From: a virus
Virus record (IMG/VR): IMGVR_UViG_3300021376_000124
Coordinates: 1-42,555 of that record
Direction: 5' to 3' (one strand)
DNA: 42,555 nucleotides
A program made the position numbers and the translations under genes. Shown here piece by piece: positions 11,679-42,362 of the stretch (position 1 is its first letter; each line of letters opens with the position of its first letter). The notes under the pieces were generated by a model. That model did no database searches. It was given only the letters and a program-made list of their open reading frames with translations, and had not been told where the DNA came from.

Positions 11679-13712
11679 ATGATGATGGAAGATCTACCTT
11701 TTATGAACGAGAATTTAGTGTTTATCTTAGAGAAGCAAGGTCATCATGTCCAGGCTTCTAAAGACTCTGACGGATACACTTTGAAGGGTATTGCAGCACA
11801 GTTTGGAAAAGAAAACAATAACAACAGAATTTATGAAGAAACTGAATATCTTCCACACTTAGATTATTTAAACGAGAAAATCAAACAAAAGAGATTGGTT
11901 GGCGAGTTAGATCACCCTGAAAAATTTGATGTTTCTTTGAAAAATATCTCACACATCGTCGAAGATCTACAATACGACAAAAACGGAAGAGTACTAAAAA
12001 TTAAGGTAAAATTGCTCGACACACCAGCAGGTCAAATTGCCAAGAAATTGGTAGATGCAGGTATTCCTCTTTCAATATCTTCTCGTGCAGCAGGAAATGT
12101 AGGTCCAGATAAAAAAGTCCAAATAAAAAAAATCTTCACGTACGATCTTGTAGCAGATCCTGGTTTTCAAGATGCTCAATTAGAAAGAGTGTACGAAAGT
12201 GCCGGTTTTTCTTTCTCTGAGTTTTCTGACAGGCAAAAAAATTCTATCGTTAACGAGCTAAAATGTGTCAACGAGTCATTAGGTATCAAAAATGATTCGG
12301 GAGTGATGATATATAAGGTCGACGATAACGAAGAATTCAAAAAAATAATCAAACAAGATAAAAATAAAAATTACACCATGGAGTCCAGAAAAGAATATGT
12401 AACGAGTGAAGAACTCAACAATTATTCCATTTTCTTAAAGAAAAAAATGGATGAGCTCGAGTCACAAATCCGTGAGGCTAAGAATACACAGAATTTGGTA
12501 GAAAGCTCAGATTCTTACACAGCAGAATTAGAAGAAAGAGTAGATCGTCTGGAAAAATATTGTGAATATCTCGCAGAAAACCTTGAGGCTTCGATCAAAT
12601 ATGGAGAATACGTTGCGGAGAATTTGGACAACTCTATTACTTACAGCAAATATCTTGCAGAAAATTTGGACAAGAATATTTCCTATTCTAAATATCTGGC
12701 AGAGAACGTCGACAAGTCAATTTTGTATTCCGAGTATGTTGCCGAGAATGTTGACAAAGGTATCAACTACTCTAAATATCTCGCAGAGAAGTTGGATGAC
12801 AGCATTCAATATTCAGAGTACCTGGCAGAAAATGTGGATCACACTATCGCCTATTCAGAGTATTTGGCGGAGAATGTGGACAGAAATATTTCTTATTCCG
12901 AATATCTAGCAGAGAAGTTGGATAGAAACATTTCCTATGCGGAATATCTTGCTGAGAATTTGGATAAAGGCATTGCCTATTCCGAATACCTTGGTGAGAA
13001 TCTCGATAAAGGTATTGCCTACTCGGAATATCTTGGTGAAAAATTAGAACAAGGAATTTCCTATTCCGAATATCTGGCAGAAAATGTAAACAGAACGATT
13101 TCTTATTCTGAATACATCGCCGAAAAATTAAATGGCACGATTTCGTATACAGAGACTTTGTCAGAAAGCGTAGGTTATCAACCGGTGGTTGAAAGAGACG
13201 CTAGGAGACAGGCAGAAGTCGCCTCAAGAACTGAATTAGCGGAGTCTGGTTTTGCTGGAGATTATACTAATCTCGGCAAACAGATTGATTTCCTAATTGA
13301 GTCGGTCCAAACCCAAAAGACCGAAACAAATCAAAGAAAGGCTGAGAGTAATTGGCAGCCTACTGCTGGAACCAAAAAAGCAGATCAAGTTCTCAACGAG
13401 AATTCAAACGCCATCTTTTCAACTGGCCACAAGTTCATCGACGAGATGCCAACAGAGTATGCTCCGATTTGGGAGTCGTTGAACGAAGGACACAAGCAAT
13501 CAATTATTGCCCAGTCTGCCTTCCACAATCTCAATACCCCTTATCAGATCAGAAATTTCTGGTCAACCCGTCAGTTTGGACCTAAGCCAATGGCTATGCA
13601 AAAATTGGAAGAGAACCAAAATATATCAGAGTCTTCAAACACTCAGAAACCCGGTGCCTACAACAACGATTATCTGAGCTGGGTGGCTAAGTCACTAGAA
13701 GGCAAATTCTAA
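11679..13712 (+). CDS. gp21: Fused prohead protease (gp21-like) and scaffold with 14-residue repeats
   Basis: Residues 1-175 are a herpes-protease-like prohead protease. GELDHP supplies the catalytic His79, SISSRAAG the nucleophile (Ser134/135) and TYDLVADPGF a conserved acidic motif (Asp156/160). Residues 190-290 are charged helix and coiled coil. Residues 294-489 are fourteen tandem 14-residue units of the form YSEYLAENLDKGIA, plus one degenerate copy to about 503. The last part (residues 505-677) is polar, with GHKFIDEMPTEYAPIW and a helical end. T4 encodes protease and scaffold separately (gp21, gp22); here one frame seems to hold both. Each repeat carries L/V/I-(A/G)-E, close to the gp21 cleavage consensus, so the scaffold may be cut repeatedly. 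Three adjacent ATG codons leave the exact start open. The capsid gene follows 26 bases later. Confidence 0.85.
   Translation: MMMEDLPFMNENLVFILEKQGHHVQASKDSDGYTLKGIAAQFGKENNNNRIYEETEYLPHLDYLNEKIKQKRLVGELDHPEKFDVSLKNISHIVEDLQYDKNGRVLKIKVKLLDTPAGQIAKKLVDAGIPLSISSRAAGNVGPDKKVQIKKIFTYDLVADPGFQDAQLERVYESAGFSFSEFSDRQKNSIVNELKCVNESLGIKNDSGVMIYKVDDNEEFKKIIKQDKNKNYTMESRKEYVTSEELNNYSIFLKKKMDELESQIREAKNTQNLVESSDSYTAELEERVDRLEKYCEYLAENLEASIKYGEYVAENLDNSITYSKYLAENLDKNISYSKYLAENVDKSILYSEYVAENVDKGINYSKYLAEKLDDSIQYSEYLAENVDHTIAYSEYLAENVDRNISYSEYLAEKLDRNISYAEYLAENLDKGIAYSEYLGENLDKGIAYSEYLGEKLEQGISYSEYLAENVNRTISYSEYIAEKLNGTISYTETLSESVGYQPVVERDARRQAEVASRTELAESGFAGDYTNLGKQIDFLIESVQTQKTETNQRKAESNWQPTAGTKKADQVLNENSNAIFSTGHKFIDEMPTEYAPIWESLNEGHKQSIIAQSAFHNLNTPYQIRNFWSTRQFGPKPMAMQKLEENQNISESSNTQKPGAYNNDYLSWVAKSLEGKF
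12558..13187 (+). repeat. Tandem 42-bp coding repeat (14-residue scaffold repeat)
   Basis: Fourteen in-frame units of exactly 42 bases (12558-13145) plus a degenerate fifteenth (13146-13187). The protein consensus is Y-S-E-Y-L-A-E-(N/K)-(L/V)-D-x-x-I-x, with Y, Y, E and I nearly invariant. The DNA copies differ at many third positions, so the protein pattern, not the DNA, has been kept under selection. No spacer separates the units. Confidence 0.95.
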
Positions 13713-21597: not shown

Positions 21598-23034
21598 ATG
21601 TGTGGTATTTTTATTAATGTAGACGGGGAAAGCTCAAGATTAAATTCTATTTCGCATAGGGGAATAGAATCAAATACTATCGAGAGAGAAGGTGTTTTCT
21701 TGTCCCATGTTAGGCTTCCTATTCAAACTCAAGAGGGGGATGGATGGAAACAACCCATTGAAATCTCATCTGGGATTTTCTTATTGTATAATGGAGAAGT
21801 CTTCAACTATGACAGAACTGTCTTTGGATCCGATATAGAATATCTCTGTCAAACATTCGCCACCTGGAAAGGAGGTTCGCTTCAAATGTTTTGCTCCATG
21901 TTTATTCCCAAAATCCAAACCTGGGACGGTTTTTGGTCCATAGCCATCTATGATTCCAAAACCAAAGATATAATTTGTTTTACGGATCCACTTGGAAAAA
22001 AATGTTTATATACAAACGATGACGGGGAACTTTCCTCAGAAATTAAGGCTGTTAAACATTGGTTCAGCCCACACGACTCACATTTCATTTCTACTGTCCG
22101 AAAATTTGGATATGTTACTGATGATTCAACACCTCATCGAGATGTGAAAAGAATTTTACCCAATACGATTTACCATTACAATTTGGAAGTTCCAAATTTC
22201 AAATCTACCTACCCAAATTATTATAGAAGTTTGAATTTTCCAATTCAAAATCTAACACCAGGAGATTATGAAGCTCATGTGGATTGGTTATGGACAAAAC
22301 TTTTCGAATCTGTTCGTAATAGATTGATTTCTAAAAATTATCCTATTTCTCTTTTGGTTTCTGGAGGTTTAGATTCATCGATTATTGCTGGGATTTTGAC
22401 ACAGATGGCACCAGAAGTAAAATGGTTTTCCATAGAAAATGGGGAATCGAAATTTGTCAACATTCTATCCGAATTTTATCAGAAACAAGTTAATTTTCTG
22501 GATTACAACATGGATGAGTCCAGATTAAAACAAATCTATCAAGAATGGAACGAAAGTCCCATAGATCTTGGTTCGGTCATTCCCCAATTTTTTCTATTCG
22601 AAGCGGTTAAAAATCAAGGAGATTCTAGAATTGTATTAAGTGGAGATGGGGCGGACGAACTTTTTGGTGGATATTCTAGAATTAATGAGTATGATTCACA
22701 ATTTTCTGATGTTTTCGATGAACTCAGATTTTATCATCTTCCTAGATTGGACAAGCTTTCTATGGCACACACTTTAGAACTCAGAAATCCATTTTTACAC
22801 CTAGACATTGTTCGTTTTGCCTTACATTTACCGAAAGAATGGAGAACAGATAAAAAAATTCTGAAGGATACTTTTGGCCCTTTACTCCCCCCTGAGATTG
22901 TAGATCGTCCAAAAGAGGCATTGAAAAATCCAAGAATTAAGGAAGACAAGTTGAAGTATCGTCAACAGGTTGTTGATCTTTTTTTAGAAACAGAACAAAC
23001 TAAATCATTTTCTGAAGCTGAAGTAGATATATAG
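21598..23034 (+). CDS. asnB: Asparagine synthase (glutamine-hydrolysing) family
   Basis: Transfers the amide nitrogen of glutamine to an ATP-activated carboxylate. MCGIF places the catalytic Cys at position 1 after Met removal (class II glutaminase); LLYNGEVFNY and DGFWSIAIYD are glutaminase-domain motifs. The synthetase domain has the PP-loop LVSGGLDSS near residue 255, LSGDGADELFGGY and ELRNPFLHLDIVRF. At 478 aa it is shorter than E. coli AsnB (554), with a brief C-terminus. Family members also amidate sugars, lipids or peptides, so free asparagine is not the only possible product. The last codons and stop lie inside a GATATATAG element that probably drives the next gene. A metabolic or surface-modifying role is inferred from neighbouring glycosyltransferases. 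Confidence 0.86.
   Translation: MCGIFINVDGESSRLNSISHRGIESNTIEREGVFLSHVRLPIQTQEGDGWKQPIEISSGIFLLYNGEVFNYDRTVFGSDIEYLCQTFATWKGGSLQMFCSMFIPKIQTWDGFWSIAIYDSKTKDIICFTDPLGKKCLYTNDDGELSSEIKAVKHWFSPHDSHFISTVRKFGYVTDDSTPHRDVKRILPNTIYHYNLEVPNFKSTYPNYYRSLNFPIQNLTPGDYEAHVDWLWTKLFESVRNRLISKNYPISLLVSGGLDSSIIAGILTQMAPEVKWFSIENGESKFVNILSEFYQKQVNFLDYNMDESRLKQIYQEWNESPIDLGSVIPQFFLFEAVKNQGDSRIVLSGDGADELFGGYSRINEYDSQFSDVFDELRFYHLPRLDKLSMAHTLELRNPFLHLDIVRFALHLPKEWRTDKKILKDTFGPLLPPEIVDRPKEALKNPRIKEDKLKYRQQVVDLFLETEQTKSFSEAEVDI
23026..23034 (+). promoter_or_regulatory. Candidate late promoter element GATATATAG overlapping a stop codon
   Basis: GATATATAG begins 28 bases before the ATG at 23054, and its final TAG is the stop codon of the asparagine synthase gene. 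Spacing matches the other copies. Confidence 0.5.
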
Positions 23035-33061: not shown

Positions 33062-35524
33062 ATGGGAATCCGCGCAACAGACAGAAATAGAAATTTATTC
33101 CTAAAAGGGTTCAGACTTTCTGACCAGGGTAGTAATGAAGACCCTACATATTTGGGTTTTAAATTTGTTTTTGATTTTGGAGTATTACCCGTGAATGATG
33201 AATATGGGTGGGCTCCAAGTCCCCTACTTAGAGTGCCAAACTACACCAATGAAGGAATTGCAACTGGTTTGGGTAATCCATTTTACCAACCTCAATATTC
33301 AAATTTCAACAATATAGCTTATTATTCGGCCTACCACTATTTGCTGCAAAGAGAAGGCGGTTTTGTGGCAGAAGCTAACCGGACAAAAAGAGCAAATGCT
33401 TTAAGACAGTTTCAAGTTTTGCTTCAAAATATTAACAATAATTCTCCTTGGTTTTTTCAGTCCATTGAAGGACTTGACAAATTAGAAAAAATTGCCAGAA
33501 CCGGATTTCAAGACGAGGATGGGGCAGACAATTTCAGCCCACAAAAAACGGACGGAAAAACTTTAAAAATAAACTGCCTGGAATCACTAAATCTCAGAAT
33601 TACCGCCTTGAGTAATTTGTATGAGACGGCAATGTTCGATGCCGATAATATGAGATGGTTGGTTCCTAGAAATTTGAGAAAATTCACGATGTTCATTTTC
33701 GTGACAGAAATTAGAAATTTTTTCAAGAATTCTAGATTATCTGGATCTTCTACGGCTTTAGCTGCTTTGGATAATCTATCCAATACTTTAACAACGAATA
33801 GAAATCCTGGTACAAATATTCAAAATTTTCCAGCTGAGGACGGGGGGGGTTTTTCTGTAGATGGCTTTAACATGACTAGATCACTTGATAACATATCAGG
33901 AAATCCCGGAAACTCGTTCACTTCTTTTGTGTCAAATGTTTTCGGACAATCTGGGTTGCAAAGCGATGCCCAGGCTTTTCGAAACCAGCAGGACCAAACT
34001 GGCATAAAACCCGTTTTCATTTATGAATGTCACCAGTGTGAATTTGATTTTAGCGAAAGTACACCTTTGCCTTCATCGATAGACATGGGGAGCTCCTCTG
34101 CAGACTCCCTTATGGCAAAACAAAGCTTCAAAATCCATATAGGAAAGGTCAGAATGAAAAACCAATATCCCAACATTAGAACCGATAAAAAACCTTTGAT
34201 TTTAGCGGATGGAGATCAACAAGATAGGACATCGGTTCAAACCCAATCTCTAACTTTTGATGCAATTGCCAGTCAGGCCAACGAATTGATTACAAATTTT
34301 ACATCTGCCGCTGTCAATGATCTTGTAAATGAAGGCATTAATCAATTTGTTAATCCAGCACTCAGTGGATTAAACCAAACTTTGCTAGGAAACATTTATT
34401 CTTTCAATCCATCACAAATTGGCCGAATGGTCACTCCAAATGGATTCAATTTCAATGATGCCCAGAATTTTTTGAATGGAGCTGCTTCTACCGGGATTGA
34501 TAATATCTTTAAGGGAAATTTACCCAATCCACAAAAGGTAGGACTTGGAGGTCCACCAGAAAGGGCATATCCTCCAATTTCTCCCCCCCAAGATGTTTAC
34601 CCCAGAGTACCTGGTACAGATTTGGGAACTCCCTCCAGAGTTTATCCGCCACCAACAGGAGATGTATATGGAAATGTACCAGGTTCCGATTTAGGACCTC
34701 CTGATCGGGTTTACCCTGTGACGACTGGAGATGTCTATGACACATCACCTGGAACTGCTTTAGGTCCACCAGACAGGGTTTATCCAGCTCCTGGCGGAGA
34801 CGTTTATACCAATGTTCCTGGTTCAGATCTTGGCGTACCAGATCGTGTCTACCCAAATCCGGTCGGAGACGTGTATGATCGTGTTCCCGGATCAGACCTA
34901 GGTGCCCCCGATCGGGTCTACCCGATCCCAGGGGGTGACGTGTATGATCGTGTTCCTGGATCAGACCTAGGTGCCCCCGATCGGGTGTACCCGATCCCGG
35001 GCGGAGACGCGTACGAGAATGTTCCGGGATCAGACCTAGGTGCCCCCGATCGGGTGTACCCGATCCCGGGCGGAGACGCGTACGAGAATGTTCCGGGGCG
35101 CGATTTGGGAGTACCTGATCGGGTTTACCCCTCCGATCCAATCGGAGACATTTATTCGGGGGTACCAGGACCAGATTTGGGTGTTCCTGATCGGGTCTAT
35201 CCTATAACCCGTGGCGATGTGTACACCGAAGATTCTATTTTTGGAACACTACCCAGAGAACAAGTTTATACCCCAAGTACTCTGGCAAACGTGGCAGGAG
35301 AACTCAGGTCCAGAGAAAATTCATTCACAGAACCACCCAAATCTGTTTATGAACCGGTTGTATTTAAACCACCCCAGGGAGGTCTTGGTGATGTTTATCC
35401 TCCAACCGTTGGTGATTTCATTATAGAGCCTCCGCTAAATTTAGGTAACATGAAACCCCCTAGCAAATTCAATCCTAGTTTAGGAACATTCAATCCTACC
35501 GAAGAGATAGAAGACGAACAGTAA
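33062..35524 (+). CDS. Tail/baseplate structural protein with 23-residue Pro/Gly/Asp repeats
   Basis: An 820-residue protein. Residues 1-350 are structural: PWFFQSIEGLDKLEKIAR, NLYETAMFDADNMRWLVPRN and LRKFTMFIFVTEIRNFF, then FIYECHQCEFDFSES and KIHIGKVRMKNQYP, which read like a tail-tube-associated domain. A helical and Asn/Gln-rich segment (residues 380-480) follows. Residues about 511-718 are nine tandem units of the type DVYDRVPGSDLGAPDRVYPI plus PGG, then a degenerate unit and a Pro-rich C-terminus. The stop codon overlaps the spike ATG by one base. The repeat could be a flexible arm or fibre attached to the baseplate. Function of both parts is not known. Confidence 0.65.
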   Translation: MGIRATDRNRNLFLKGFRLSDQGSNEDPTYLGFKFVFDFGVLPVNDEYGWAPSPLLRVPNYTNEGIATGLGNPFYQPQYSNFNNIAYYSAYHYLLQREGGFVAEANRTKRANALRQFQVLLQNINNNSPWFFQSIEGLDKLEKIARTGFQDEDGADNFSPQKTDGKTLKINCLESLNLRITALSNLYETAMFDADNMRWLVPRNLRKFTMFIFVTEIRNFFKNSRLSGSSTALAALDNLSNTLTTNRNPGTNIQNFPAEDGGGFSVDGFNMTRSLDNISGNPGNSFTSFVSNVFGQSGLQSDAQAFRNQQDQTGIKPVFIYECHQCEFDFSESTPLPSSIDMGSSSADSLMAKQSFKIHIGKVRMKNQYPNIRTDKKPLILADGDQQDRTSVQTQSLTFDAIASQANELITNFTSAAVNDLVNEGINQFVNPALSGLNQTLLGNIYSFNPSQIGRMVTPNGFNFNDAQNFLNGAASTGIDNIFKGNLPNPQKVGLGGPPERAYPPISPPQDVYPRVPGTDLGTPSRVYPPPTGDVYGNVPGSDLGPPDRVYPVTTGDVYDTSPGTALGPPDRVYPAPGGDVYTNVPGSDLGVPDRVYPNPVGDVYDRVPGSDLGAPDRVYPIPGGDVYDRVPGSDLGAPDRVYPIPGGDAYENVPGSDLGAPDRVYPIPGGDAYENVPGRDLGVPDRVYPSDPIGDIYSGVPGPDLGVPDRVYPITRGDVYTEDSIFGTLPREQVYTPSTLANVAGELRSRENSFTEPPKSVYEPVVFKPPQGGLGDVYPPTVGDFIIEPPLNLGNMKPPSKFNPSLGTFNPTEEIEDEQ
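34592..35215 (+). repeat. Tandem 69-bp coding repeat (23-residue Pro/Gly/Asp units)
   Basis: Nine in-frame units: eight of 69 bases and one of 72. Consensus D-V-Y-x-x-V-P-G-S-D-L-G-x-P-D-R-V-Y-P-x-x-x-G. Units 6-8 are nearly identical in DNA (34958-35028 equals 35027-35097 at a 69-base offset), pointing to recent duplication by slippage or unequal exchange. This part is visibly richer in G and C than its surroundings. Confidence 0.93.
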
Positions 35525-36192
35525 TGGCAAATCCGCGTTTTTATTTAGGACAGGTCGTCGATATCAACGATCCAAACAAATCAGGCAGAGCCAGAATAAG
35601 GGTTTTTGGTCTCTTTGATGGACTAGAACAAGAAGATATTCCATGGGCTAGCCAATTAAGTGGTCTTTCTTTTGGAAAAGGTGGGGCTGGAACCATTTCT
35701 ATTCCAAAAATGGGAGCAATCGTGGTGGTCCAGTTCGACGGACAGAATTACTACAAAATGAACTATTACGCGGAGAAGGACTATTCCGAGGACATGTTGG
35801 CCGAGATAGCAGATTCCTATGAGGGAGCACAGGTCATCATGTACGATACGGAAGCCGAGCCTGGTCCCTTGACTTTATTTTACACGAAAAAGAAAGGTGC
35901 TGTTTTCTCTTTGGGCAACGCCAAAATCCAATTTGATACACAGGATGGGGGTCAGCTCAGAGTGGTCATCGAAATGGGTCAAGATCAAATTAGAATGGAA
36001 AATAACAAGGTGATCATTAACTCCAATAACATCGAACTGGGCGAAGCTGCCATTGAGGCAGTAATCAAAGGTAATACTTTCCAAACCTACTTTAATTCAC
36101 ACACCCATATTGGTAATTTGGGTGCACCCACCTCTCCCCCAGTCGTACCTTCCACTCCTAATCATTTGTCTACGGTCAGCAAAACCAGATAA
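35524..36192 (+). CDS. Baseplate central spike protein (gp5/gpV OB-fold, no lysozyme domain)
   Basis: The membrane-piercing spike base. The N-terminal OB-fold reads RFYLGQVVDINDPNKSGRAR, then IRVFGLFDGLEQEDIPWASQ, then GTISIPKMGAIVVVQFDG, the standard gp5/gpV/VgrG order. A connecting segment leads to beta-helix-like strands (QIRMENNKVIINSNNIELG) and the end FNSHTHIGNLG with APTSPPVVPSTP, like spike ends that hold the tip protein. At 222 aa it lacks the lysozyme domain found in T4 gp5. It overlaps the preceding stop by one base, and the next gene starts after 2 bases. Confidence 0.86.
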   Translation: MANPRFYLGQVVDINDPNKSGRARIRVFGLFDGLEQEDIPWASQLSGLSFGKGGAGTISIPKMGAIVVVQFDGQNYYKMNYYAEKDYSEDMLAEIADSYEGAQVIMYDTEAEPGPLTLFYTKKKGAVFSLGNAKIQFDTQDGGQLRVVIEMGQDQIRMENNKVIINSNNIELGEAAIEAVIKGNTFQTYFNSHTHIGNLGAPTSPPVVPSTPNHLSTVSKTR

Positions 36193-36194
36193 TT

Positions 36195-38957
36195 ATGTCA
36201 ATTCCAAAATGTTTGAAAGATAATCAGATTGCGAATTTTGTTGAAAATGTTAATCAAACTGCAGACAAAATCTTAGGTGAAAGTAAATTCAAAATACCAA
36301 ACCCGGCACTACCCGGTCTTGGTTTATTAATAAAGTTACAAATAAGAATATTTGAAAAATCAATTCTGTTTATTTTTCTACCAATTATACAAGGAAAGGA
36401 AGTAGTGACAAATGCTTTCAAAACTTTTCGAGTTTTAAAAAACATCAGGAAAGGTTTAAATCAAATTATAGATACAGTAAGAAATCCAATTCAAGAACTT
36501 CTTAATCAAGCTATTAATGACCCGTTGGCAGAGGAATTTCCATTTCCGGTATTTTTTCGGTATGGAATAAACCCCCGGGGTAACATACAGAGTTTAATCG
36601 ATGAAATAGATAGGGCTGGTACCGATGTCAGCTCTGAAAATTTACTGTTGAATTACAAAATAGAATTCAATTCTATTTTAGATCCAACCCCTGGATTGAT
36701 CACATCCCCAAATGATTCCCCAAACAATTTACGACAGATGAAAGTTAATTTCACGAGTGAAGCTGGGGAAACAGATTCCCCTTTGGTTTTTTTGAAACCT
36801 GGTGATTATTTTTCTCTTGATTTCCAAAACTCCACAAACACTTATCGTGTTTCCTCTATCGATTTACAAAACAATTTTGTTGAGCTTTTTTTTCAAATAC
36901 AGGCAGCTTCTAATTCTGGTTCTGGGATAACAGAAGAAAAAGTTTTCTCTCCTGGATTTTCTTCGGCATCTCTTAGAATTTCAAGAAAAATTACGCTGAG
37001 ACAATTTTTAACAGAAGGGGGTTTTTTATTAATTCCATTTTCTGCTTTAGGAATTGATCTTCCAATTTCTTTAGAATTAGGTAATTTCGATCGATTGAAA
37101 GAAAACAATCCAACTTACAAATTCGTGAAGGGATTGGAGGCTATATCCAATTTGAATTTTTCAAAAGTTTTAGGCGATATGATCGATGGGATTTTTCCGG
37201 TTATCGATTGGGAAGAAATTCAGAAAGATGTTAGATTTAGAAGTACAAAAGAGGTTGCAAAGTTAGAAATAGTAAATTTGGCTCGTTTCCTCCAAATTGG
37301 AATCGAAAATCCTTTCTTTTTAATCAAAATCATTTTAAATTATTTGAAGCTTCTTCTCCTGCCAATACAGGTAGTTGTTTCTATATTTGAAACAATACTT
37401 TCACAAATTCGTTCTCCGGTAGGTCTAATCAGAACTGTGTTTCGAATTATTGCCAGCCCATTGAGATTTTTATGCGACATTATTTCTGATGCTTTTTTAA
37501 AATTCCTGAGAGGATATTTAGAACCCCCCTTGGCCCCATTGATTCCTTGGAACGATCTAGTGCAAGATCCTGATGCTCAAGGTAGGGGGTTGAAACCCCT
37601 ATTTTCCGATTTGATTTGTGGATCTTTCAAAAGAAAATTAGGAAATTATAAACCTAATTCTAATTTTTTTGTTCGGGAGTCATCCAAATTAAAAACACCG
37701 ACGGGAGAAAATCCAATCGTTCAATTAAGTTATAATTTAACACAAAATCTCATTCCTGATCTAGGCGAGGTAAGTTTGTCATCTCCTATATTGATTCAAA
37801 ATTCCTCAATGAGATTCAGCACAATTACAGACACTGTTGAAAATGGTCTTGCTTATTTGGCTTCTCTTCAATACGGAGACACCTTTTATCTCAGTTCTGG
37901 TAATCAATTTCAAAATTTTAGGGTAACCGGGAAGAGACTTCTTCAGGAAAAAAATGGAAATTATTTCGAATATTTAGTACAACCGGTAGATGTGGCCGAA
38001 GTGTATCCCACACAGGAAGATCAACAACTTCAATCTTCCTACAATGGGATAGTCTCCGAACAATTTAAAGCATCGATCAGTATAAACAATCCAAATAAAA
38101 CTTTTTTGTTTATTTTGGAAAAATATTTGCCTCTGAAGGCCATAGCCGCATGGGAAAGCATCAAAGGAATTTTTGCTATTGTAGTTGCTATCGCTGCAGA
38201 AATTCCATCTATTCTTCCCATTTGTTTTTCATGTATATTTTCTGGCGGAAATAAAAGCAATCCTGAAACATCATCATCCCTAACACAAGGCGGGATTTCA
38301 GATTACATTGAAGGATTCATTAAATCTTTAGACATCGAATTAGATCCAACCAAATTTGACTGGGGAGAATATGATTCAGGAGAAGCAAGAGAAATTTCAC
38401 AGGAATTTTTCAGGGATATCCAAGAAAGAGAAATATATCCAGGGAGTGGAGGTGGATCTGAAAAAACACCAAACACGGAAGGTGGAATTCAAGAACTTTT
38501 TATAGAATTACAAAAAGCCAGGGCAGCAGAAGGTAAACCTACCGTAATAAGAAGACAAGATCTTCCTTCACAGGTCCAGAAAAATTTCAGATGGGATTCC
38601 TTGACGTTGAACCAAATTGGGGAGAATTTGAAAGTTTTGTCTAGAGTTGCCTTTGAGCTTTCCTTCAGGGCAACAGATAAAAGTCAAAGCGAATTGGTTT
38701 CAAAGTCAATACCAATCACAGTTTGGGCTTTAACAGAAGATGGAGAAGGAGAATTCAAAATAATTAACAATGGTCAACTTTTTCAATCGTTCGTAGATTA
38801 CTCTTTTTTCAAATTATATTTTGATACACCTTCTAAAGAAGAAAAAAACCCGATCAGAACCACAGAATATAGATTTCGAGCTTCTGATGTTCGATATTAC
38901 GTTCATCTGAATTTCAGATTTGCGAAAGAATATTTGTTACCTTCACTCAAAAGTTAA
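36195..38957 (+). CDS. Large unknown tail-module protein with hydrophobic segments
   Basis: A 920-residue protein not recognised. Hydrophobic stretches lie near residues 44-66 (LLIKLQIRIFEKSILFIFLP), 372-402 (FFLIKIILNYLKLLLLPIQV) and 655-680 (GIFAIVVAIAAEIPSILPIC). The remainder alternates beta-like segments with acidic loops. It has no signal peptide. Position directly after the spike suggests a baseplate or wedge component, or a tail protein that touches the membrane during infection. Its C-terminal 250 residues (after a Gly/Ser-rich break near residue 755) look like a separate domain. 18 bases separate its stop from an in-frame upstream ATG of the next gene that I judged not to be used. 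Confidence 0.6.
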   Translation: MSIPKCLKDNQIANFVENVNQTADKILGESKFKIPNPALPGLGLLIKLQIRIFEKSILFIFLPIIQGKEVVTNAFKTFRVLKNIRKGLNQIIDTVRNPIQELLNQAINDPLAEEFPFPVFFRYGINPRGNIQSLIDEIDRAGTDVSSENLLLNYKIEFNSILDPTPGLITSPNDSPNNLRQMKVNFTSEAGETDSPLVFLKPGDYFSLDFQNSTNTYRVSSIDLQNNFVELFFQIQAASNSGSGITEEKVFSPGFSSASLRISRKITLRQFLTEGGFLLIPFSALGIDLPISLELGNFDRLKENNPTYKFVKGLEAISNLNFSKVLGDMIDGIFPVIDWEEIQKDVRFRSTKEVAKLEIVNLARFLQIGIENPFFLIKIILNYLKLLLLPIQVVVSIFETILSQIRSPVGLIRTVFRIIASPLRFLCDIISDAFLKFLRGYLEPPLAPLIPWNDLVQDPDAQGRGLKPLFSDLICGSFKRKLGNYKPNSNFFVRESSKLKTPTGENPIVQLSYNLTQNLIPDLGEVSLSSPILIQNSSMRFSTITDTVENGLAYLASLQYGDTFYLSSGNQFQNFRVTGKRLLQEKNGNYFEYLVQPVDVAEVYPTQEDQQLQSSYNGIVSEQFKASISINNPNKTFLFILEKYLPLKAIAAWESIKGIFAIVVAIAAEIPSILPICFSCIFSGGNKSNPETSSSLTQGGISDYIEGFIKSLDIELDPTKFDWGEYDSGEAREISQEFFRDIQEREIYPGSGGGSEKTPNTEGGIQELFIELQKARAAEGKPTVIRRQDLPSQVQKNFRWDSLTLNQIGENLKVLSRVAFELSFRATDKSQSELVSKSIPITVWALTEDGEGEFKIINNGQLFQSFVDYSFFKLYFDTPSKEEKNPIRTTEYRFRASDVRYYVHLNFRFAKEYLLPSLKS

Positions 38958-38991
38958 ACCCTAATTTGAGTTTGGATGTTGGTTTTGAAAA

Positions 38992-39000
38992 GATATATAG
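38992..39000 (+). promoter_or_regulatory. Candidate late promoter element GATATATAG
   Basis: GATATATAG begins 32 bases before the ATG at 39024. It lies inside the possible 16-codon upstream extension of that gene (ATG 38976), which argues against that extension. Confidence 0.52.
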
Positions 39001-39023
39001 ATCGTCTTTTTAAACCAAAAAAA

Positions 39024-40187
39024 ATGAAATCATCCAAAAAAATTTCCGTAGAGACTTCTAGTTTCAACTGGGACATTCCCAACAACTTCACGGTGAATAC
39101 AAAATTCAAAACCGCCGAGAAGACCAAAGTTTACTGTCATGAAAGTTATGCTTTGGAATTGTATAATCTAATGACTGGCAATTTGAGCGGCATTAGAACT
39201 TCGAAGGATTTATCCGCCGGGGGATCTTATTCGTGTGTTATTTCTGCTTCTGATTCCACCCACGCCTTGGCTCAAACAGATTCTGGACAGACGATTTATA
39301 TCGATCTAAAAAAAGAATCTAAAGATGCTGCCAGACTTGGTCTAATAGATGCCATCAACTTTGAAGTTGGCTCCGAAATTAAAGCAGCAGTTCGACAAAT
39401 TTCTGGAACTTATTTTGGTTCTGTTGTAGATTGTTACATTCAAAATCTAAAGGCTGAATTTTTCGATCAAATCAAAAAGCAAAGCCTGGCCTACGAGGCA
39501 AGGGTAAAATCCATCAATAAAGGTGGATATCTTGTTGATGTTAATGGAATTGAGTGTTTTCTTCCTGGATCTTTGGCAGCGGCTAATAAGATTACCGATT
39601 TTGATTCCTACATCGGAAAGAAATTTTATGTCATGATCGATGGTTATGTTGCTGCCAAAGACATCTTTGTTGTTTCTTACAAGAAGTATTTACACAAAAT
39701 CATGGATCACAAAATCCAGGAATTAGATTTAACCAAAAAATACAAAGGTCACGTAACTGGAACTTCTGCCTTTGGTGTATTTGTAGAATGGGAGGAAATT
39801 TTCACCGGGCTAATTCACAAAACAGAATTTGAAAATCAAGTCATCGAAGGATTCAATCCTGGTGATGAAATCGAATTTTACATCAAGGAAATTAAGGACG
39901 ACAATCGTCTTACCTTAACTTTCGGTGAACCATTGGAGAAAAATAAGTGGATGTACGAATTGAAGAAGGCTGTGGAAGATGGAACTTCAGAACCTATGAA
40001 TGCCACTGTCAAACACAAAAGGAAAAATGGTGCCCTAATCGAAATTGGGGATTCGGGTCAGATGGCTCTCGTGCCACAGGAAAAACTTGGAAAGAATTCC
40101 AAAAATCTTCAGGCGGGAGACACCATCCGGGTTCAGATTTATCAGGTAGATCCATTGGCCGGAAAAATATTCGCCAGTCAGGTATAA
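39024..40187 (+). CDS. S1-domain RNA-binding protein (ribosomal protein S1-like)
   Basis: The start was placed at 39024, downstream of a GATATATAG element; an in-frame ATG at 38976 would include the promoter. The 387-residue protein has at least three S1-type OB domains: near residues 152-215 (YEARVKSINKGGYLVDVNGI; ECFLPGSLAA), 236-305 (KYKGHVTGTSAFGVFVEWEE; FTGLIHKTEF; then FNPGDEIEFYI) and 322-387 (ATVKHKRKNGALIEIGDSGQ). The G-x-(F/Y)-x-V-x-(V/I), then P-x-S or GL-x-H, then G-x-x-(I/V) pattern repeats in each. The N-terminal 150 residues may hold a degenerate fourth. S1 recruits mRNA to ribosomes; this may redirect translation or process RNA. Its stop overlaps the next ATG by one base. Confidence 0.82.
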   Translation: MKSSKKISVETSSFNWDIPNNFTVNTKFKTAEKTKVYCHESYALELYNLMTGNLSGIRTSKDLSAGGSYSCVISASDSTHALAQTDSGQTIYIDLKKESKDAARLGLIDAINFEVGSEIKAAVRQISGTYFGSVVDCYIQNLKAEFFDQIKKQSLAYEARVKSINKGGYLVDVNGIECFLPGSLAAANKITDFDSYIGKKFYVMIDGYVAAKDIFVVSYKKYLHKIMDHKIQELDLTKKYKGHVTGTSAFGVFVEWEEIFTGLIHKTEFENQVIEGFNPGDEIEFYIKEIKDDNRLTLTFGEPLEKNKWMYELKKAVEDGTSEPMNATVKHKRKNGALIEIGDSGQMALVPQEKLGKNSKNLQAGDTIRVQIYQVDPLAGKIFASQV

Positions 40188-41578
40188 TGAATTCACACTT
40201 CGACAAATACCAGGCCCTATCATCATCCGTTCTAGGATTTGAATTTGAATTCTTTTCCGAAATGGTGAGGGGCCGAATTGTCGAATCACTTTCTAAGATG
40301 CTTGGGAAAAAAGTGGTTTTGTCCGACAAATACCATTCCAAAATTCCGGTTTCCGCCGACAGCTTCAAGTTGGAACCGGACTATTCTGGTGGAAGCAAGA
40401 TGAACGAATTGATCACTGGTCCTATGCCATATGGAGAAGCAATTCCAGTTTTAATCAAAGTTTTAAAATGGATTGAGGCAAACGGATGGACAACAGATCG
40501 GTGTGCTTTTCAATTTTCAATTTCTTTTGATCCTCACGACAGAAAATTGGAAAAAATGGAACGTTTGGATCGGATGAAATTCATTTTGGGAATCGATGAA
40601 GGAATCGTTTATTCGTCATTCGGAAATCGAACCAATAATGTTTATGCCAAATCTCTAAAGAAGATCGTACCGGTGAACAAATTTTCGATTTTAGAAAATA
40701 TAACCACCATCGATCCGAGGCTATTTAAGCTACCTGGGGAAAAATACTACGGGGCAAACTTCACCAAGTTACAGGATGGATATGTTGAGATACGCTATTT
40801 AGGAGGAAAGGATTACCAAAAGAAAATTAATCCCATTTTAGAAGTTACAGATTATGTTACTTTGCTGTTACATGATATTCTTTCTGGAAAAAAAGTTTAT
40901 GAAAAAGAGGATGTTCAAAAATTACAGGAGATGATGAGACAGCACACGAAGGTCGTGAGAAGTTTTTCGAATCCAGATTCATTCTTTATGAACTATCCAG
41001 ATTTTCACGTGTTGGTTGATTTAAAGGGTTACGAGGAAAATATCAAAACTTATTGGTCACATATTCGGGAAAAGATTTTTGATCTAATTGTCGAAGGTGG
41101 AATACAGGCATGTTTTTTCAATTATGACACCTCCATTGGAAGATTTCAAATCAAGGATGCCAAAAGCAAAAATGGATTGATTTTAAAGGACGTAGACATT
41201 TTCGACAGTGTGGTGAAAAATGGAAAATTGGAGAACTGTAATTTATATGGAACACAGGTAAAAAATTCGGAGCTTTACGATTGTAAGTTAGTTTTCGGTA
41301 ACAAGTTGTTCGACAGCAAATTTCAAAACTCAATAGCAGATTATGGGAATTTGCTAGAAAATTGTTATATTGATTGTCCACAACAGATGGTTGACTGTGA
41401 GGTCAAAGGCGGCGTATTGAGAAAGGCGGATCTAGGGAGAAACTCCCTCATTTCCGAACAGACCGAGAAAGTCAAAGATTTCAACGAAATTCGTACCACA
41501 CGTTTTATAGCGGATTCTAGGTTGAAAAATTTGAACGATCCGATTACCAAGATCAAATTCAAAAATATCAATTACTAA
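40187..41578 (+). CDS. Amidoligase-like protein with C-terminal pentapeptide/beta-helix-like repeats
   Basis: The start was placed at ATG 40187, one base overlapping the previous stop; the frame extends further upstream only as a shadow of the S1 gene. Residues 1-300 follow the phage amidoligase pattern (glutamine-synthetase-like peptide ligase fold): GFEFEF (Glu19, Glu21), EPDYSGGSKMNELITGP around residues 63-79, then IKVLKWIEANGWTTDR and FQFSISFD, where family members usually have HxNxS. Here His is replaced by Gln. Residues about 345-425 contain short repeats around NG/NC/DC (GKLENCNLYGTQVKNSELYD), like a pentapeptide beta-helix. At 464 aa it is longer than plain amidoligases. ATP-dependent amide bond formation is predicted; the substrate is unknown. 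Confidence 0.58.
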   Translation: MNSHFDKYQALSSSVLGFEFEFFSEMVRGRIVESLSKMLGKKVVLSDKYHSKIPVSADSFKLEPDYSGGSKMNELITGPMPYGEAIPVLIKVLKWIEANGWTTDRCAFQFSISFDPHDRKLEKMERLDRMKFILGIDEGIVYSSFGNRTNNVYAKSLKKIVPVNKFSILENITTIDPRLFKLPGEKYYGANFTKLQDGYVEIRYLGGKDYQKKINPILEVTDYVTLLLHDILSGKKVYEKEDVQKLQEMMRQHTKVVRSFSNPDSFFMNYPDFHVLVDLKGYEENIKTYWSHIREKIFDLIVEGGIQACFFNYDTSIGRFQIKDAKSKNGLILKDVDIFDSVVKNGKLENCNLYGTQVKNSELYDCKLVFGNKLFDSKFQNSIADYGNLLENCYIDCPQQMVDCEVKGGVLRKADLGRNSLISEQTEKVKDFNEIRTTRFIADSRLKNLNDPITKIKFKNINY

Positions 41579-41579
41579 C

Positions 41580-42362
41580 ATGACTTTAGAAGAATTGGTT
41601 CAGGAAATCAAAGATGATTTATCCGCCAGCTGCGCCCTTCCTTATAACCTAAACGATCAAGAAATCATCAGGATCATCACCAGGGCAAAGGCGTGGATGT
41701 ACGATAACTACCAGTATGCTGTGGAAAAAAGGTACTTCGTTCTGGGTGGAGCTTTTTTCCAAACGCCACAATTCAGAAACACCCGTCAGGTTCAGCTTCC
41801 GGATAAAATCGTAACTGTGTTTGACGTCAGAGAAACTAACGGTAACGGTATTTCTGGGAATCCGGACAGAGACTTCGGTGATTCGAAATTGATCGGATCT
41901 GAACTTCTTCTTTCCCCGTTTACTGGAGATAATCTTGTGTACAGAACAGTTATGTATTCTTATTTTGACCTGGCCCAGGCATATATTTTACCAACATATG
42001 CCTTTAGCTGGAACAAAAACACGAAGAAGTTAACAATCCTAGGTAGGGATCCAGTGAGACCAGCAACTCAGTCAACTACCCAAAATGAAAACGGTTACAA
42101 TTTGACCCAAGCGGTGGTTGTAAGTTGTTACGTAGCGATTGAAGACTATGAATTGTATAACGACGAATTATTTATTAGATATTGTTTTGCCAAAGCTAAA
42201 CAATCTTTGGTTAAGGTTCTTAGCGCTTTTGATTATAACCTTCCGGGTGGGGTTAGAGTTAACACCTCGACTTTGAGTCAAGAGGCTTCAACAGAGCTAC
42301 AAGAGGTAATGGCCATGATAAATGGGGAAAATACTCCATCTTATTTTTTACAGTGGAATTGA
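41580..42362 (+). CDS. Probable virion structural (neck/connector-type) protein
   Basis: A 260-residue protein. It begins with helices (LEELVQEIKDDLSASCALPY; DQEIIRIITRAKAWMYDNYQ) and beta-rich middle segments (RQVQLPDKIVTVFDVRE; AVVVSCYVAIEDYELYNDEL), ending in a helix-rich C-terminus (KQSLVKVLSAFDYNLPGGVR). The helix-then-beta layout and the CALPYNLNDQEI opening suggest a head-tail joining protein such as T4 gp13, gp14 or gp15, but I cannot name the homologue with certainty. It lies between the S1/amidoligase pair and another partial gene that has its own promoter-like element. Confidence 0.55.
   Translation: MTLEELVQEIKDDLSASCALPYNLNDQEIIRIITRAKAWMYDNYQYAVEKRYFVLGGAFFQTPQFRNTRQVQLPDKIVTVFDVRETNGNGISGNPDRDFGDSKLIGSELLLSPFTGDNLVYRTVMYSYFDLAQAYILPTYAFSWNKNTKKLTILGRDPVRPATQSTTQNENGYNLTQAVVVSCYVAIEDYELYNDELFIRYCFAKAKQSLVKVLSAFDYNLPGGVRVNTSTLSQEASTELQEVMAMINGENTPSYFLQWN

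Follow-up and report, generated by a model that had tools for sequence, protein, structure and literature searches.

What does a phage do with a protein built of S1 domains, and is that protein a relative of ribosomal protein bS1? The window, a 42,555-nt stretch covering positions 1 to 42,555 of IMG/VR virus record IMGVR_UViG_3300021376_000124, encodes such a protein, P0001. A sequence-only reading of the window described it as a 387-residue protein with at least three S1/OB repeats, and suggested that it could be an S1 mimic. We confirmed the size and the repeats, and the number of domains is four, based on Pfam matches and an AlphaFold2 model. The gene and its parts, with the basis for each, are as follows.

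39024..40187, + strand: P0001, bS1-like four-OB-domain protein, 387 aa (ORF, Pfam, PDB matches, model, Foldseek)
39063..39071, + strand: codons for F14-N15-W16, the F[DN]W peptide common to Bacteroidia bS1 and Lak phages (sequence comparison)
39141..39179, + strand: predicted N-terminal helix, residues 40-52 (model); counterpart of the uS2-docking bS1 helix by inspection of alignments
39225..39422, + strand: OB1, residues 68-133, closest to bS1 D1 (model, profile comparison)
39492..39677, + strand: OB2, residues 157-218, bS1 D2 with KGG(Y/F)...FLPGS (model, profiles, pocket residues)
39738..39920, + strand: OB3, residues 239-299, closest to bS1 D5 (model, profile comparison)
39996..40181, + strand: OB4, residues 325-386, D6-like, missing in the shorter Lak proteins (model, profiles, alignment)

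Gene start and predicted structure

Comparison of the upstream regions of relatives identified 39024 as the conserved, true start codon of the S1 gene. An earlier start at 38976, which would give 403 aa, was rejected: this ATG is not conserved, being absent in L005-L009, and the extension would contain the GATATATA element described below.

The Pfam S1 family (PF00575) matched three stretches of P0001 with 71 bits against a cut-off of 22 (E = 1e-19), and S1_2 (PF13509) matched the last domain. The AlphaFold2 model, built from a 19-row alignment of window and IMG/VR rows only, has four OB barrels following the N-terminal helix at residues 40-52. It has a pLDDT of 75 and a pTM of 0.46, with residues 1-17 below 50 and low confidence over residues 1-34. 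Because this pTM makes the relative placement of the domains unreliable, we did not read function from the model. The VIA-align rows test mainly residues 165-387 of P0001.

Relationship to ribosomal protein bS1

P0001 resembles bS1 in sequence and in predicted fold. Its best PDB sequence matches are bS1 proteins (9zcd, 6h4n, and others; E = 1e-14), and a Foldseek search of the PDB placed E. coli bS1 in the 30S mRNA delivery complex (9gut) at the top, with an E-value of 1.8e-21 over 362 columns. The leading NCBIfam matches are also bS1 models. The first of these, NF004953, scored 80.8 bits against a cut-off of 720, and P0001 falls below all bS1 equivalog cut-offs. Among genomes of the phylum Bacteroidota, 79 of 80 pass the NF004953 cut-off, against 1 of 14 control genomes, presumably the Bacteroides. 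Baseplate OB families did not match P0001, only S1-type families and bS1 folds matching well, and a PHROGs search returned no significant family. Generic S1 RNA-binding proteins (CvfD/GSP13, PNPase, RNase R) were dropped as an identification, their matches being weaker and single-domain. Structure comparison with host S1, proposed as a check in the sequence-only reading, gave no sign of another OB type: the fold was that of bS1, and so were the domain profiles. We take P0001 to be a shortened, strongly diverged bS1 homologue, by the curated cut-off not a bS1 orthologue, that probably works like bS1.

We split 31 host bS1 sequences into domains D1 to D6 and compared their profiles with each OB domain; the E-values given here are for single comparisons. 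OB2 matched D2 at 9e-16 (runner-up, 1.8e-7) and OB3 matched D5 at 6.7e-14 (runner-up, 2.4e-10). OB1 was closest to D1 at 1.6e-7, with D6 close at 4.8e-7. For OB4, D6 and D4 tied in hhalign, and HMMER gave 18.5 bits for D6 and 4.3 for D4. P0001 does not have the six-domain D1-D6 order of Bacteroidota bS1, as both the model and the profiles give four domains. The simplest reading would be a bS1 minus D3-D4, in the order D1-D2-D5-D6, in which D2 is unequivocal and the last domain ambiguous. In E. coli bS1, D3-D4 are part of the RNA-binding region. OB3 of P0001 is net acidic (-7).

The bS1-specific D2, with its KGG-F...FLPGS signature, is present among the tandem S1 domains of P0001. The mRNA pocket of E. 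coli D2 is formed by K117, F120, and F130 (PMC10123108), to which K166, Y169, and F179 of P0001 correspond. Both aromatic positions are conserved in all 26 family members.

A Bacteroidia peptide at the N terminus

The bS1 N terminus carries the F[DN]W peptide in all of the 80 named Bacteroidota genomes, which the query skewed to Flavobacteriia, and in 17 of 50 bS1 from a wider sample of the phylum. Among the phage proteins, 21 of 26 have F[DNS]W: all 19 rows of the window clade, both Lak rows, and none of the five rows from 462-735 kb phages. The chance rate of such a tripeptide, based on the window's own proteins, is about 0.9% per 40 residues. We found no function for this peptide of Bacteroidia bS1 in the literature. 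The loop-2 lysine of bS1 (K43 in E. coli) inserts in the zinc pocket of uS2; by eye in the alignment, the 462-735 kb members appear to have this lysine, whereas none could be made out in Lak or the window clade. Members bearing F[DN]W seem to be without the lysine and members lacking the peptide seem to have it, an observation made by eye that covers few independent lineages.

The E. coli bS1 N-terminal helix stacks on uS2 (PMC10123108). Since the peptide precedes this helix, it may have a role in docking. All three parts of the bS1 anchor, namely the F[DN]W peptide of Bacteroidia, the helix, and D1, are present at the N terminus of P0001, with low model confidence at residues 1-34.

Promoter and leader

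The region before the start codon contains two features.

38992..38999, + strand: GATATATA, late-type promoter element, 32 nt before the start (strand bias, conservation)
39005..39023, + strand: A-rich leader without Shine-Dalgarno (SD) site, with a CTTTTTAAAC-then-A-run pattern recurring in relatives (upstream comparison, leader counts)

The GATATATA element occurs 11 times on the + strand of the window and not at all on the - strand, where 0.5 would be expected on each. In 8 of the 11 cases it lies 24-52 nt ahead of a start codon, including that of the prohead protease gene. This strand bias and placement fit a late promoter. The element is upstream of the S1 gene in 23 of 23 window-clade regions compared, and is missing from the compared upstream regions of the S1 genes of Lak, LR756500, and LR756504. 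The late-type promoter called in the sequence-only reading is therefore supported, and from it we infer late expression of the S1 gene.

The A-rich, SD-less leaders that had been described for this phage also held up on counting. Leaders (positions -20 to -1) are 46% A versus 34% in coding sequence, and 24 of 36 window genes have A at position -3. SD-like 4-mers are at chance, with 3 of 36 genes against 2.7 expected in this 42.6 kb fragment. These leaders agree with the description of starts in Bacteroidetes as SD-less and Kozak-like (PMC6847099). The leader contains another conserved pattern at 39007-39023, in which CTTTTTAAAC precedes a run of A directly before the start; most of the clade has it, and it was not found as such ahead of other window genes.

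Genome surroundings, distribution, and inheritance

The window covers part of the genome of a T4-like phage, whose Gp23 capsid is closest to those of LR756500 (462 kb) and the Lak megaphages. The S1 gene is flanked by the following genes.

36195..38957, + strand: upstream neighbour, 920 aa, no family match, tail/baseplate block (family searches, synteny)
40187..41578, + strand: downstream neighbour, 463 aa, no confident family, after the S1 gene in 41/41 loci (family searches, synteny)
41580..42362, + strand: head-tail adaptor, PHROG 211 (family search, synteny)

The order of S1 gene, 463-aa gene, and head-tail adaptor is the same in all 41 IMG/VR loci. A baseplate/tail block precedes the S1 gene in LR756500 and in those IMG/VR loci long enough to show it; in the window it includes a baseplate OB protein gene at 35524-36192. 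No tail/head block was found within 10 kb of the S1 gene in Lak or the 634-735 kb phages. The gene is thus kept there without this block, which argues against a purely structural role.

We found the S1 gene in 41 relatives from IMG/VR, in 15 records of Lak megaphages, and in huge phages of 462-735 kb, and P0001 is homologous to the Lak and 462-735 kb proteins over most of its length. The T4-like Bacteroidota phages PTm1 (225 kb) and MaF61 (168 kb) have the capsid and no member of the S1 family. The S1 family is shared by a giant-phage lineage linked to Bacteroidota. Identities of S1 and capsid proteins correlate across 15 phages (r = 0.95, Mantel p 0.0002). Because S1 divergence tracks that of the capsid, the S1 gene is old in the lineage and vertically inherited with the capsid. 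The tree places the phage S1 proteins in one clade, deep and separate from host bS1. Recent capture from a host is not supported by this deep separate branch, whose length leaves the exact origin uncertain.

Genes for bS21 were observed in four 634-735 kb records (L132-L135) and in one 348 kb window-clade IMG/VR contig (L138), all of which bear S1. Lak and the 462 kb record yielded none, so bS21 and S1 are not a fixed pair.

Comparison with known S1 proteins

Al-Shayeb et al. (2020) described S1-domain proteins in huge phages and noted that SD sites can seldom be identified in the carriers; they suggested that these proteins act in translation initiation, whether on the ribosome or away from it (PMC7162821). 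The idea of an S1 mimic in huge phages was thus already published in 2020 and is not new here; we found no functional test of it in the literature. Mizuno et al. (2019) left the S1 domain out of account because its function is ambiguous (PMC6375957). P0001 shares with the rpS1 of huge phages and Lak its homology to proteins of the 462-735 kb and Lak records, multiple S1 domains, SD-poor genomes, and the same proposed role in initiation. It goes beyond that description in its four domains, the D1-D2-D5-D6 reading, F[DN]W, the late-type promoter, and capsid-linked inheritance. Lak S1 proteins, unlike P0001, have no OB4. To this earlier picture our analysis adds a map of the domains, the peptide that the N terminus shares with Bacteroidia, a late-type promoter, conserved gene order, and inheritance in step with the capsid.

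Bacteroidia bS1 (e.g., Flavobacterium; PDB 9zcd) resembles P0001 in the F[DN]W peptide, docking helix, D1, D2 with KGG...FLPGS, and C-terminal OB domains. It differs in its length of about 590 aa versus 387, with two domains more, and the P0001 family forms a separate deep clade. Microcystis phage PhiMa05 likewise encodes a bS1, a separate case that its authors traced to a Vampirovibrio-like host (PMC13157829). The P0001 family is instead a long separate branch with the Bacteroidia signature; the two are set apart here by the published description of the PhiMa05 protein. The best matches among viral models in BFVD are phage proteins, aligned over the full length at 24-30% identity: A0A7S9STL2 (Virus NIOZ-UU157), A0A8D9CG03, and A0A6J5NIG6. 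Two are annotated as 30S ribosomal protein S1, by database annotation only, and we found no functional work on these three entries.

Proposed role and alternatives

We favor, as the probable role of P0001, a late, 30S-docking bS1 mimic that would present SD-less, A-rich phage leaders and so favor phage mRNA. The protein would be an internally shortened, phage-encoded bS1 homologue, made late, with a D1-D2 anchor module and two D5/D6-like OB domains. Docking on the Bacteroidia 30S subunit, close to uS2 and in the site of bS1 itself, would be the task of the F[DN]W peptide, the helix, and D1. Phage mRNAs would be contacted at their SD-less, A-rich 5' leaders by D2 and the C-terminal OB domains and so brought to the subunit, where P0001 would take over from the loosely bound host bS1 or work alongside it. 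Ribosome docking, RNA binding, and preference for phage mRNA are what we infer from homology, domain order, the late-type promoter, the SD-less, A-rich leaders, and conservation in huge phages, all of which support a mimic. In F. johnsoniae, bS1 is loosely bound and extra bS1 increases initiation on SD-less mRNA (PMC9976891). Counting against a mimic are the wide failure of the equivalog cut-offs, the apparent absence of D3-D4, the loop-2 lysine not being evident, and the acidic OB3. The core of the original proposal, an S1 mimic in a Bacteroidota phage with SD-less, A-rich leaders, is well supported, with D2, D1, F[DN]W, the late-type promoter, and conservation behind it. Selectivity for phage mRNA is so far unsupported: SD-less, A-rich leaders are the host phylum's own style too, so the leaders alone give none. 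Nothing points to the replicase-type cofactor also suggested at that stage.

The same domains could serve away from the ribosome, several OB domains binding A/U-rich phage RNA as an RNA chaperone or mRNA protector without docking. S1 domains are widespread in RNA-binding proteins of many functions (PMC6375957), and models of PNPase, RNase R, and the CvfD type match P0001 weakly. We nevertheless consider this unlikely, as generic S1 proteins have neither the D2 specific to bS1 nor the N-terminal peptide of Bacteroidia, both of which P0001 has, and Lak members lost OB4 yet kept the anchor end. The kept anchor and missing central domains, together with the loose, sub-stoichiometric binding of host bS1 in purified ribosomes (PMC9976891), would also suit a dominant-negative decoy. 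Here D1-D2 would fill the bS1 site, leaving structured host mRNAs unaided without D3-D4, so that host translation drops while unstructured, A-rich phage mRNAs still initiate. D1-D2 would suffice for a pure decoy, however, whereas two more OB domains are retained and conserved in most members, and a late promoter would be odd for host shut-off; this role seems quite unlikely.

Very improbable is a virion or assembly component, with OB domains that are structural or injected. In the window clade and LR756500 (462 kb), the S1 gene does have baseplate/tail genes on one side and the head-tail adaptor on the other, and it shares its late-type promoter with head genes. Yet Lak and the 634-735 kb phages keep it with no such block found within 10 kb, PTm1 and MaF61 have a capsid without such a protein, and the fold is that of bS1, not of a baseplate OB protein.

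A more far-reaching form of the bS1 mimic is one we offer only tentatively and would sooner doubt. As a core megaphage gene, a trimmed, anciently captured bS1 may replace host bS1 on the Bacteroidia 30S subunit late in infection, giving specialized ribosomes and switching mRNA choice where the host already disables SD pairing. If P0001 docks on host ribosomes, phages would have a direct route to control initiation in a phylum with blocked SD pairing, and the protein would be a tool for studying start-site choice by Bacteroidia ribosomes. That Lak and other huge phages have conserved it suggests importance to that lifestyle. P0001 is a short protein open to testing, and Flavobacterium johnsoniae is an established laboratory host system.

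Other features of the window

The prohead protease (S77/PHROG 207) encoded at 11679-13712 continues at its C terminus into a long series of repeats of about 15 residues (YSEYLAENLD...), which may be a fused scaffold. An 820-aa tail-block protein (33062-35524) has tandem ~20-residue repeats (GDVYDRVPGSDLGAPDRVYP). Inside the late region, an asparagine-synthase-like (glutamine amidotransferase) gene, judged from its translation only, lies at 21598-23034.
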